Part shown: one piece after another, positions 21,773 through 26,238 of the stretch
Layout of the letters: every line of letters begins with the position of its first letter
Position numbering within the stretch: position 1 is the first letter of the stretch
DNA from: Candidatus Bathyarchaeota archaeon
GTDB taxonomy: Archaea > Thermoproteota > Bathyarchaeia > Bathyarchaeales > Bathycorpusculaceae
DNA: 32,345 nt
NCBI GenBank assembly: GCA_023488905.1
Contig: JAMDCQ010000022.1
Location: 1 to 32,345, forward strand
Reading direction: 5' to 3'
Notes under the pieces: model-generated
What the model saw: only the letters and a program-made list of their open reading frames with translations
What the model was told of the DNA's origin: nothing
Databases searched by the model: none
Made by a program: the position numbers and the translations under genes

Positions 21773-23212
21773 TTATTCTGTGTGGACTCTGTAGAGGTCG
21801 ATGTCTTCGCGCATGGCAGGGGTCAATTCGAGGAAGTCTCGGACTGCACGCTCGATATCTCTGCTTTGGGTCACGTATCTGCCGACGATAAGTATGTCTG
21901 CGCCTAATGCCAGTGCTTCTTTAGCTGTTTCAGGGACGATGCCGCCTGCGACTGCGATTAAGAGTTTCTTGTTGGGGAATGCTTTGCGGATCATCTGTAT
22001 GCGTTCTAAGCCGCAGCTTCTGCCGCTTTCTTGGTCGATGCCTCTGTGTAAGATGACGATGTCTGGGAACTCTTTGAGCGCCTTTAGTTTAGCCAAAACA
22101 TCTTCTACGTTTAGCATGTCGATGACTGCGTACATTCCTAGGCGTTTGGCTTCTTGAACGGTTGCGTCAAGGGTTTCTGGAGGAGCTAAACCTGCTGCCA
22201 CCACTGCATCTGCGGTGTCCTCGTAGGCGATGTCAGCTTCAACTTTGCCCACATCAAGGGTTTTGAGGTCTGCAATGATGAATTTGTCTTTGGCTGCTTG
22301 GCGAAGTTCGCCGATGACGCGTGTGCCGTAGCGTTTGATGAGGGGTGTGCCGACTTCAAGGATGATTCTGTCGCTGCCTGGCAATGCCTCGATGACTTTC
22401 TTGGCGCCTTCAAGTGAGGGTGCATCAAGCGCAATTTGGAGATAGGGTGGTCTCCACAGTCTTGGAACTTTGAAGCCCATAATTGGGTGCTTGGCGCGGT
22501 CTTTGTCGTAGTTTATCTTGTCCAGTGATGGGTACTTCTTGAGCGCACGTCGTAGAGCCATCTTGGTTGCGCCGTAGTTGTACTGGTAGATTTTGCGGTA
22601 ATCAGTTGCCTGTGGGTGAATAAAGACGCTGCAGACGATGACCCATTCGTCGAGTTTGCTGAGTGGGATTACGCCTTCTTCAGCTGAGTCCGCGATGGCT
22701 TTGGCGACTGCTGCCTGTGCGGGGCCGAAGATTTTGCCTGTGTCCTCCATGTCTTTGACGGTGACTTTGGGGACGATGAGTGTGTGGGGTTTAGGTGGCA
22801 AGTTGGGACGGATGACTGCCAATAGGGGTGTGTGCCCGGCGGATAGGGTTGTTAAGCCGTTGGCGAATGCTTGGCCGACTGGGCCTGTTTTGTCGCCTAT
22901 CATGAGGTCAACGTGTGCAACTTCGTTTCCTTCTCCGACAAGGGATTCGCCGATGAGGTAGGTTATGCCGCTGTATTCGTCTGTGTCGTCACTAGCTGTC
23001 GGCACTCGGTCAACTATTTCTTTGAAATCGACATTAAACTCCTTTAACCATGAGTAAAGGGTGTCTCTGTGAATGTCCATTTCTTTTGCTGTTCCGACGA
23101 TTGTCGGTTTTGTCGGCTTACCTTTCACGCCGACTTCTTTTTTTGCTGCTTCGGTAACAATTTTTATTAGTTCGTTGCGGTTTTCTGGCTTTTTAACGTC
23201 TACTCCCGACAT
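21773..23212 (-). CDS. fae-hps: HTH-Fae-Hps fusion: formaldehyde-activating enzyme / 3-hexulose-6-phosphate synthase
   Basis: Fae condenses formaldehyde with tetrahydromethanopterin. Hps interconverts ribulose-5-phosphate plus formaldehyde and hexulose-6-phosphate, and in archaea the pair supplies pentoses. The 479 residues divide into three parts. An N-terminal region (1-75) has a helix-turn-helix (AKEMDIHRDTLYSWLKEFNV, 42-61) of the Fis/HTH_8 look. Fae (about 81-245) includes EGNEVAHVDLMIG; His100 corresponds to the known catalytic histidine. Hps (about 255-479) includes ADLKTLDVGK (314-323), the D-x-K-x-x-D motif, and HRGIDQ. Two-domain Fae-Hps is about 390-400 residues, so the N-terminal part is extra. 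It is in frame and has no better start before the Fae domain. The gene stands alone on its strand. Confidence 0.95.
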   Translation of the reverse strand: MSGVDVKKPENRNELIKIVTEAAKKEVGVKGKPTKPTIVGTAKEMDIHRDTLYSWLKEFNVDFKEIVDRVPTASDDTDEYSGITYLIGESLVGEGNEVAHVDLMIGDKTGPVGQAFANGLTTLSAGHTPLLAVIRPNLPPKPHTLIVPKVTVKDMEDTGKIFGPAQAAVAKAIADSAEEGVIPLSKLDEWVIVCSVFIHPQATDYRKIYQYNYGATKMALRRALKKYPSLDKINYDKDRAKHPIMGFKVPRLWRPPYLQIALDAPSLEGAKKVIEALPGSDRIILEVGTPLIKRYGTRVIGELRQAAKDKFIIADLKTLDVGKVEADIAYEDTADAVVAAGLAPPETLDATVQEAKRLGMYAVIDMLNVEDVLAKLKALKEFPDIVILHRGIDQESGRSCGLERIQMIRKAFPNKKLLIAVAGGIVPETAKEALALGADILIVGRYVTQSRDIERAVRDFLELTPAMREDIDLYRVHTE

Positions 23213-23404
23213 TTAGTTATCCTCGCTCGGTGTCTTTCTCTGCTGATGTATATAAGAATGTCGGATGAACTGCGTTCGATTGTGGTTGGATGATGGTTTT
23301 TTAGCCCTAACTTGCCGATTTAGCCCGATGTGGGTGTGGCGGGTGCCCTGTAAATCTTTATATCCCAAGTTCAGCATTGAATGCTCCAAACCAAACGGGG
23401 AAAA

Positions 23405-23629
23405 ATGATGTCTTGGACTGACTGGTCGCTACTGAGTGCCTTCATTTTGGGATTCGTGCTTTTCCTAATCGGCGCCAACACCTACAACGCCCTCGTCGGC
23501 TACGCTGGCATCTACCTCTTCATAGGATCCATCGCAGTCTACCTCGTCCTCTACATCTACAAAGAATTCAAAAAGAAACCCGCCAATGAAACCCCACCAG
23601 CCCCCATAGAAGCACCTCAGAATCCATAG
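23405..23629 (+). CDS. Small two-helix membrane protein
   Basis: From ATG 23405 the product is about 74 residues with two membrane helices (WSLLSAFILGFVLFLIGANT; YAGIYLFIGSIAVYLVLYIY) and a Lys/Pro-rich cytoplasmic tail. I prefer 23405 or 23408 over the ATG at 23381. A TATA-like CTTTATATCC near 23353-23362 would start transcription close to 23385, and a GGGG ribosome-binding site lies just before 23405. The last 13 bp overlap the convergent carboxypeptidase gene. No family recognised. Confidence 0.65.
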   Translation: MMSWTDWSLLSAFILGFVLFLIGANTYNALVGYAGIYLFIGSIAVYLVLYIYKEFKKKPANETPPAPIEAPQNP

Positions 23630-25297: not shown

Positions 25298-25960
25298 TTG
25301 AGCAACGTTGATTCAAGCAAAACCATAGCTGCAATCGGTGCCCTACTCCTATTCCTAAGCTTCATTCCAGCTCTAGGCATCATAGGCATAATTCTCCTCT
25401 TAATCGGCATGAAAGGCTTATCCGACTACTACCGCGACGAAAGCATCTACAAAAGCGCACTCAAAGGCTTAATCTTCGGCATCATCGGCATAATCGCTGT
25501 CTCAGCATTTTCCATGCTAAGCTTCCTAGGCGGACTAATTACCACTCCAGTGTTGGGTCCCTTGGCAATAATCGGCGGCATAATCGGCATCATAGTGTTA
25601 CTGGTCGTCGCATTCATATTCTACCTGCTTATGGCTATGAACTTCAGAAAAGCATTTAACGTATTAGCTGAACGTTCAGGCGAAAACAACTTCCGAACCG
25701 CAGGAACCCTGCTGTTCTGGGGTGCAATTCTGACAATAATCGTCGTTGGTTTGTTACTGATCTGGATTGCATGGATAATAGCTGCACTCGCATTCTTCTC
25801 AATGAAATTAGCACCTACACAACCTCAGCAACAGTACGGTTACGCGCCACCTCCACCCAACTCCAGCACAGCCTCACGCTACTGTCCCAGCTGCGGCGCA
25901 CCAGTCGACCAAACCTCAACCTTCTGCCCCCACTGCGGAAAACAGCTACCCCCAGCCTAA
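25298..25960 (+). CDS. DUF996 membrane protein with C-terminal zinc ribbon
   Basis: From TTG 25298 the product is 220 residues. It has several hydrophobic segments of the archaeal/bacterial DUF996 type (AAIGALLLFLSFIPALGIIG; FGIIGIIAVSAFSMLSFLGG; two further pairs), then a Gln/Tyr/Pro linker and a four-cysteine zinc ribbon at the end (YCPSCGAP and FCPHCGKQ). I chose 25298 because GAGG lies nine bases upstream. The earlier TTG at 25283 overlaps that site. The same start arrangement is seen in the next gene. Zinc-ribbon tails often mediate assembly; function unknown. Confidence 0.78.
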   Translation: MSNVDSSKTIAAIGALLLFLSFIPALGIIGIILLLIGMKGLSDYYRDESIYKSALKGLIFGIIGIIAVSAFSMLSFLGGLITTPVLGPLAIIGGIIGIIVLLVVAFIFYLLMAMNFRKAFNVLAERSGENNFRTAGTLLFWGAILTIIVVGLLLIWIAWIIAALAFFSMKLAPTQPQQQYGYAPPPPNSSTASRYCPSCGAPVDQTSTFCPHCGKQLPPA

Positions 25961-26049
25961 CCCCTTCCTTTTTTCATCTTGTTGCTGCCAGCGTGCAACC
26001 ACACAACTTTAAGAACAAAGTACACTCGCTATTTCTTGAGGATCCAAAT

Positions 26050-26238
26050 TTGAGTTCTACTGTTTCTTCCAGCGAGGAATCCTTCCGCCCAAATTACAAA
26101 CCGCCTCTCAGCCAAGAAATCTATGACCGCCTACCACGCGAACTGGTGTGCGAAGTATGCGGCAAAATCTTTAGAAGCCCAACCCAGCTGAACATGCACC
26201 AATTCACGGTACATGCTCCTGTGGAAGATTTGGTTTAA
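26050..26238 (+). CDS. Single C2H2 zinc-finger small protein
   Basis: A 62-residue product from TTG 26050, with GAGG at 26038-26041 as ribosome-binding site. The C-terminal half is a classical finger: Cys34-x2-Cys37-x12-His50-x4-His55 (CEVCGKIFRSPTQLNMHQFT then VH). The N-terminal half is a Ser/Pro-rich linker. Small one-finger proteins of this kind are recurrent in archaea and are presumed nucleic-acid or protein binders. The upstream in-frame extension to 25771 runs through the DUF996 gene and is not real. Confidence 0.75.
   Translation: MSSTVSSSEESFRPNYKPPLSQEIYDRLPRELVCEVCGKIFRSPTQLNMHQFTVHAPVEDLV

Follow-up and report, generated by a model that had tools for sequence, protein, structure and literature searches.

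The window (the whole 32,345-nucleotide stretch of DNA analyzed here) comes from a genome of the Bathyarchaeia, largely uncultured archaea that are common in sediments. Its reverse strand carries a gene for a bifunctional Fae-Hps enzyme with an N-terminal extension, together with candidate control elements around the start of the gene:

21773–23212, reverse strand: HTH-Fae-Hps gene, an open reading frame of 479 aa with an ATG start
21836–22447, reverse strand: Hps domain (OMPdecase/HUMPS), residues 256–459 (Pfam PF00215, E = 1e−35)
22478–22954, reverse strand: Fae domain, residues 87–245 (Pfam PF08714, E = 4.5e−69)
22961–23212, reverse strand: N-terminal extension, residues 1–84, lying beyond the Fae and Hps models (55-sequence alignment)
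23039–23101, reverse strand: predicted helix-turn-helix (HTH), residues 38–58 (AlphaFold2 helices 38–44 and 49–58; residues conserved in 55 sequences)
23206–23211, reverse strand: candidate inverted half-site TGTCGG across the start codon (ATGTCGGG)
23249–23255, reverse strand: TATA box TTATATA, matching the consensus of 75 aligned promoters
23259–23265, reverse strand: candidate operator half-site TCCGACA abutting the TATA box
23313–23318, reverse strand: possible degenerate third site TCGGCA, with two mismatches, at a position (about −104 to −107) occupied by CCGACA in several relatives

The enzymatic part is matched by the NCBIfam model for bifunctional Fae-Hps (NF009833; 573.5 bits against a cutoff of 274), and the gene is the single fae-hps match within its own genome (G000; 1.79 Mb in 23 contigs). 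Members of this family, such as Mhun1628 of Methanospirillum hungatei, share both catalytic domains and their order, whereas the family model covers only residues 85–478 of the window protein and thus begins after the extension. His100, aligned with the histidine of EVAHIDL in the solved Fae structure 1y5y, is invariant among 37 sequences, as are A314, D315, K317, T318, L319, and D320 of the Hps motif ADLKTLD; we take His100, D315, K317, and D320 to be the positions corresponding to known Fae and Hps catalytic residues. A sequence-only reading of this DNA had described both catalytic regions as intact, and this conservation agrees with it: the catalytic residues look intact, and both activities are predicted. 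For the M. hungatei fusion, Hps activity has been described and a role in a reverse RuMP pathway proposed, with Fae capturing formaldehyde (PMC5241800). By analogy with that account (PMC5241800), the enzyme studied here would probably also act in a reverse RuMP pathway, making pentose phosphates and capturing the released formaldehyde. No PHI was found in the window's own genome above the TIGR03127 cutoff; the best candidate, below that cutoff, is a protein of 384 aa that contains two SIS-like stretches (G000:C13, L186:1360–2514, reverse strand).

The same reading had claimed about 75 extra N-terminal residues with an HTH ahead of complete Fae and Hps domains, and had proposed structure prediction and a phylogenetic survey of the extension as checks. 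The claim is borne out, with an extension of 84 residues. In the 55-sequence alignment of the extension, P9, T37, A42, D50, T51, W55, V61, and F63 are invariant, and H48, R49, L52, and Y53 occur in at least 90% of sequences. AlphaFold2, run on residues 1–84 with these 55 sequences, recovered helices at 12–29, 38–44, 49–58, and 63–69 with a mean pLDDT of 74, rising to 88 and 90 in the blocks 41–50 and 51–60; a full-length model agrees (helices 12–30, 38–44, 49–58, and 63–67). HTH_28 and GP3_package each match 54 of the 55 aligned N-terminal domains (E ≤ 0.1). For the window protein itself, HTH-type families match within residues 34–76, all below curated cutoffs, the best score being 20.1 bits against the 28.1-bit cutoff of HTH_29. 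A Foldseek search of the HTH model against the PDB returned no match at E ≤ 0.001; the 50 weak matches listed include many TetR-family regulators (probability up to 0.82), as well as unrelated methyltransferases and an acetyltransferase. Taken together, these models predict that the extension folds as an HTH.

Confirmed relatives in named genomes numbered 215, and the best 80 of them were retained; the majority of these 80 are Bathyarchaeota, with a few Altiarchaeota, Thaumarchaeota, and Euryarchaeota, and the nearest among them is Candidatus Bathycorpusculum termitum (90%). Several relatives are presumably MAGs of Bathycorpusculum from termite guts. Within the Bathyarchaeia, the whole protein matches 207 of 256 genomes at E ≤ 0.001 (the weak matches partially) and the extension profile matches 122, one of them a borderline hit that does not lie on Fae-Hps (G217, E = 9.7e−4), in a genome with no fae-hps match in the whole-protein search. 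Most places matched by the extension profile sit in open frames of 477–548 aa and hence on fae-hps; shorter frames, which represent contig cuts or broken frames, were checked in part. The HTH was not found with confidence on any other protein in the 256 genomes. Beyond the class, the 29-genome phylum of G257 (the genome of L104, named Altiarchaeota) holds 14 full-length fae-hps genes, whose frames of 394–413 aa give no sign of a DNA-binding head, and four further broken ones, two of which have frames measuring 432 and 459 aa; at least ten bifunctional fae-hps genes lie outside the class among 398 genomes from the window's phylum. No DNA-binding head was recognizable in nine fetched fae-hps genes from outside the class, which have at most 43 residues before Fae (a Pfam scan was made on L189). 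Close relatives in many separate assemblies carry the extension, and the TATA box sits 5′ of the ATG, so the expected transcript would include the HTH codons; misassembly, or a transcription start downstream of the HTH, both raised as ways in which the initial claim might fail, do not account for the extension. A wrongly assigned start codon is likewise ruled out by these assemblies and by the operator at the ATG.

Upstream sequences of relatives carry TCCGACA directly 5′ of the TATA box, with the core CCGACA in that position in 74 of 77 HTH-type genes and in four further genes. The inverted copy over the start codon (ATG TCG G..) emerged from a map of CCGACA and TGTCGG across 78 non-redundant HTH-type genes. 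Codon 2 is TCG in 73 of these 78, as compared with 126 of 1245 serine codons in the remainder of the proteins; the first three residues, MS[GED], seem to be dictated by the operator. Half-sites were counted as CCGACA 45–63 bp upstream and TGTCGG at the start, allowing any in-frame start 66–99 codons before the enzymatic core. By this count, 68 of the 77 parsed genes (non-redundant, with the degenerate copy L080 set aside) have both half-sites, six the upstream one only, three the start one only, and none neither. Both are also present in all four of the HTH-type genes beyond the 77 (L060, L076, L085, and L092), giving 72 of 81 with both and 0 of 81 with neither. L008, L108, and L150 keep the HTH and have no clean TATA-side site. 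Among the other ORFs in L031–L103 and the window, 0 of 356 have both half-sites, while one has TGTCGG alone and one CCGACA alone. From the underlying set (L001–L150), 32 near-copies with identical first 120 core residues were dropped; L078 and L139 are cut off at the 5′ end, and L099 and L141 are masked by N.

The number of sites varies among promoters, with three or four in 45 of the 78 HTH-type genes, two in 27, one in five, and none in L080; the window's own promoter has only the two clean half-sites. The TATA-side and start-codon half-sites are about 53 bp (five helical turns) apart, and in over half of the relatives additional sites lie farther upstream (−80 to −158), mostly about three, four, five, or six turns from the next site. 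Distances between adjacent sites peak at 31–32, 42–43, 51–55, and 63–64 bp and fall preferentially near multiples of 10.5 bp (30 distinct distances, R = 0.61; nominal Rayleigh p of about 2e−5, for the best of seven periods tried and with clustered distances treated as independent). Because the distances are clustered and some are off phase (19, 45, 46, 99, and 137 bp), helical phasing of the half-sites is only suggestive. The 168-bp intergenic region upstream of fae-hps is shared with a divergent 82-aa membrane-protein-like ORF (window positions 23381–23629, forward strand), which lies upstream of fae-hps in nine of the relatives compared and is possibly a bystander of the operator.

In several genes the head is lost or decayed, and the half-sites have gone with it. 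L072 (isolate Coa324_bin13) and L073 (B. acetigenerans) share the same in-frame HTH deletion in two assemblies, keeping N-terminal MTGTEVNKPENR / MSGTEVKKPENR and several neighbor genes. Both half-sites are mutated in these genes (TCCGGCA on the TATA side; starts ATGACAGG and ATGTCAGG), and the TATA box is kept. Two second copies, L098, in which the HTH is gone, and L080, in which HRD within the HTH has become QLD, have no half-sites. The half-sites are thus gone in four of four genes with a deleted or decayed HTH; as all four fall in one clade (support 98/86), there may have been fewer than four loss events. L080 and L098, additional fae-hps copies of Bathycorpusculum genomes that share a long branch, are possibly subfunctionalized paralogs.

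A different head occurs on Fae-Hps in families f25–f27 of the same class, with the consensus MSEDKGLVRAPGRITQEQYRFLExLVEQGRFxSVSEAVRAAI. ParD_antitoxin matches 14 of 14 such heads and RHH_1 10 of 14 (E ≤ 0.1), the RHH_1 score of L123 (26.1 bits) lying above the cutoff of 20.5; the head also resembles solved ParD antitoxins (a PDB ParD chain, E = 9.4e−5). These matches identify the head of this sister clade as a ribbon-helix-helix domain (RHH; CopG/ParD-like), unrelated to the HTH. The RHH-type genes have a candidate operator of their own, TGTGAC...GTCACA, in which TGTGACAC..GAGGTCACA or a variant stands before the TATA box and a further TGTGACAC-like site lies upstream, at a spacing of 51–52 bp in 10 of 14 genes, 62–63 bp in two, and 40 and 42 bp in L112 and L116. 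The stricter pattern GTGWCACNNNRAGGNCAC occurs at 18 places in the 256 genomes (control, four), 13 of which are at RHH-type fae-hps; of the other five, four were checked (all but G210:C8), and none is at fae-hps. A widened regular expression, made after the sequences were viewed, matches 14 of 14 RHH rows and one of 15 headless rows. Among 90 tree rows with readable promoters, no row without the HTH, the RHH clade included, has CCGACA with a TATA box, and a start-like TGTCGG appears in one of the 15 headless rows (L129).

A tree of the enzymatic part alone (91 rows; 19 close HTH-type rows and two short rows left out) places the HTH-type genes and their losses in one clade (98/98) and the 14 RHH-type rows in another (100/95). 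Outgroup rows are headless; L128, a long-branch gene that also lacks a head, falls with the RHH clade (87/68). Given that HTH and RHH are unrelated folds, a head must have been acquired at least twice, and probably three times with L111, although one head may have replaced another. L111 (G210:C4; start near base 1399, reverse strand) bears a third, different HTH-like head on Fae-Hps in a single genome and is placed among headless genes (97/91); its TATA box is bracketed by an inverted TGCCGCA/TGCGGCA, one of several 7–8-mer repeats at chance level in the same stretch. A tree-aware sign test of domain against operator had two independent pairs for HTH and one for RHH, and with so few contrasts cannot reach significance. 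Its operator expression was narrow, without TTATA, and found sites in 35 of the 56 HTH rows and in 13 of the 14 RHH rows; wider expressions matched 55 of 56 and 14 of 14, in a search window that included coding sequence.

The type of domain, the type of operator, and their joint losses make binding of the enzyme to its own promoter the best explanation of these data. We consider it likely that this Fae-Hps is a self-regulating trigger enzyme whose N-terminal HTH binds TCCGACA/TGTCGG at its own promoter, and that it is probably an autorepressor. Repression is favored because the sites abut the TATA box and cross the start codon. Under this model, one half-site would be contacted beside the TATA box, where TFB and TBP bind, and the inverted one across the start codon; through several HTH arms, an enzyme oligomer would hold sites along a single face of the double helix, occlude the promoter, and so repress its own transcription, holding constant the level of an enzyme that releases or captures formaldehyde. 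Since Fae forms pentamers and Hps dimers, a many-headed oligomer bound to phased half-sites is plausible. From sequence comparison, then, we infer physical binding, repression in preference to activation, and an oligomer on the DNA; formaldehyde, H4MPT, or sugar phosphates might in addition tune the binding.

The same binding might instead activate the promoter, or do both depending on ligand, a reading that we regard as unlikely. Archaeal activators can recruit TFB/TBP from upstream positions, and in many species further sites do lie upstream of the TATA-side one (−80 to −158); however, the most constant sites occupy positions that normally block transcription. L072 and L073, moreover, lost both half-sites yet kept the TATA box, which suggests that activation is at least not indispensable in these genes.

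It is less probable still that a separate regulator binds TCCGACA while the HTH on Fae-Hps does something else. Motif and domain could share the history of one clade, given the few independent contrasts, but the motif vanishes from genes with a deleted or decayed domain, among them L072 and L073, whose neighbor genes are kept, and the RHH clade has a different operator on the same gene. In the 256 genomes the HTH profile is nearly confined to fae-hps, with the single borderline exception in G217, so the search turned up no other protein with a closely related domain that could fill that role.

The sequence-only reading had further suggested that the enzyme might regulate formaldehyde or pentose genes according to substrate load. 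Its idea of a DNA-binding-type domain on the enzyme gains from the operator sites, whose type follows that of the domain and which disappear along with it; the regulon does not. The TATA-side site pattern TCCGACANNNTTAWAT occurs once in the window's own genome, at the fae-hps promoter, which also rules out TCCGACA as a general promoter element. Paired half-sites (CCGACAN{25,55}TGTCGG) occur there at two places, the fae-hps promoter and the inside of an 815-aa open frame. No second target was found in that genome with these two patterns, and a search allowing two mismatches gave 12 places as compared with 17 control places. Across the 256 genomes, TCCGACANNNTTAWAT occurs at 99 places, 91 of them at HTH-type fae-hps (84 just upstream of listed genes and seven upstream of cut or broken ones); the eight elsewhere are fewer than the 23 places of a reversed-pattern control. 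The exact pattern is present in 84 of 110 HTH-type genes compared; many of the remaining 26 belong to family f4, and in the members of f4 that were fetched the spacer to the TATA box is longer. While the genome-wide searches covered two site arrangements, so that lone half-sites away from a TATA box would escape them, these counts make control of formaldehyde or pentose genes in general, on top of autoregulation, a distinctly improbable addition.

A purely oligomeric or protein-interaction role for the extension, the alternative that the same reading had kept in view, is now very unlikely: small helical extensions can serve in this way, and Fae and Hps are oligomeric, but such a role leaves unexplained the DNA sites coupled to the domain, the TCG codon constraint, and the fact that the sister clade carries RHH, a classical DNA-binding fold.

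Beyond autorepression as such, we put forward tentatively a broader possibility, in which a ligand-gated trigger enzyme was built repeatedly from unrelated heads (HTH, RHH, and perhaps the third HTH of L111), each with its own operator, and in which the oligomer would read phased half-sites and release the DNA when its active sites are occupied. If so, head and operator would be exchangeable parts around a constant sensor-enzyme body, and ligand control would turn the pathway's own enzyme into a sensor of formaldehyde or pentose.

Regulators of related kinds are known. HxlR, the formaldehyde-responsive activator of hxlAB in Bacillus, likewise controls the hexulose-phosphate synthase step; unlike the head described here, it is a separate winged-helix protein, unfused to the enzyme. 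The archaeal regulators ThiR/ThiN and GfcR similarly join an HTH to a domain resembling a metabolic enzyme; there the enzyme-like part is thought to be mainly a ligand sensor, whereas both catalytic domains of the window protein look intact. PutA carries an RHH domain and BirA an HTH. Both are enzymes that also act as direct transcriptional repressors of their own pathway (PMC6978683), and the dual role predicted here is of the same kind. PutA and BirA involve other enzymes and bacterial operons, whereas the present system is archaeal, has apparently one target (its own gene), places half-sites around the TATA box and start codon, and shows heads of unrelated fold on one enzyme. A literature search found no description of an HTH- or RHH-Fae-Hps, including in the available portions of PMC5241800, PMC7772410, PMC6978683, and PMC7495880. 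Enzyme-repressors such as PutA and BirA are already known (PMC6978683); what appears new is the enzyme, the archaeal setting, the geometry of promoter and start codon, and the way each type of head goes with an operator of its own. The locus offers a testable case, from archaea that are largely uncultured, of an enzyme equipped with its own control circuit. The pairing of HTH with TCCGACA and of RHH with TGTGAC...GTCACA, in which domain and operator differ and vanish together on one enzyme, constitutes a natural experiment in the evolution of autoregulation.

Other Fae-containing proteins and neighboring ORFs were observed in the course of this analysis. A second Fae protein of the Bathyarchaeia (L198–L203; e.g., L198:1576–3000, reverse strand) has about 300 residues before Fae; Pfam assigns L198 a dihydrodipicolinate-synthase-type aldolase (DHDPS, 4–271) followed by Fae (314–471), and L199–L203 resemble it by sequence. 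The aldolase of this protein type could release or use formaldehyde. Chain B of PDB 8ub7, named Avd, has a Fae-like domain at 124–286 and is probably a fusion construct. Within the window, a 155-aa ORF at 25771–26238 (forward strand) contains a C2H2 zinc finger at the Pfam cutoff (25.2 bits) and overlaps a DUF996 zinc-ribbon ORF.
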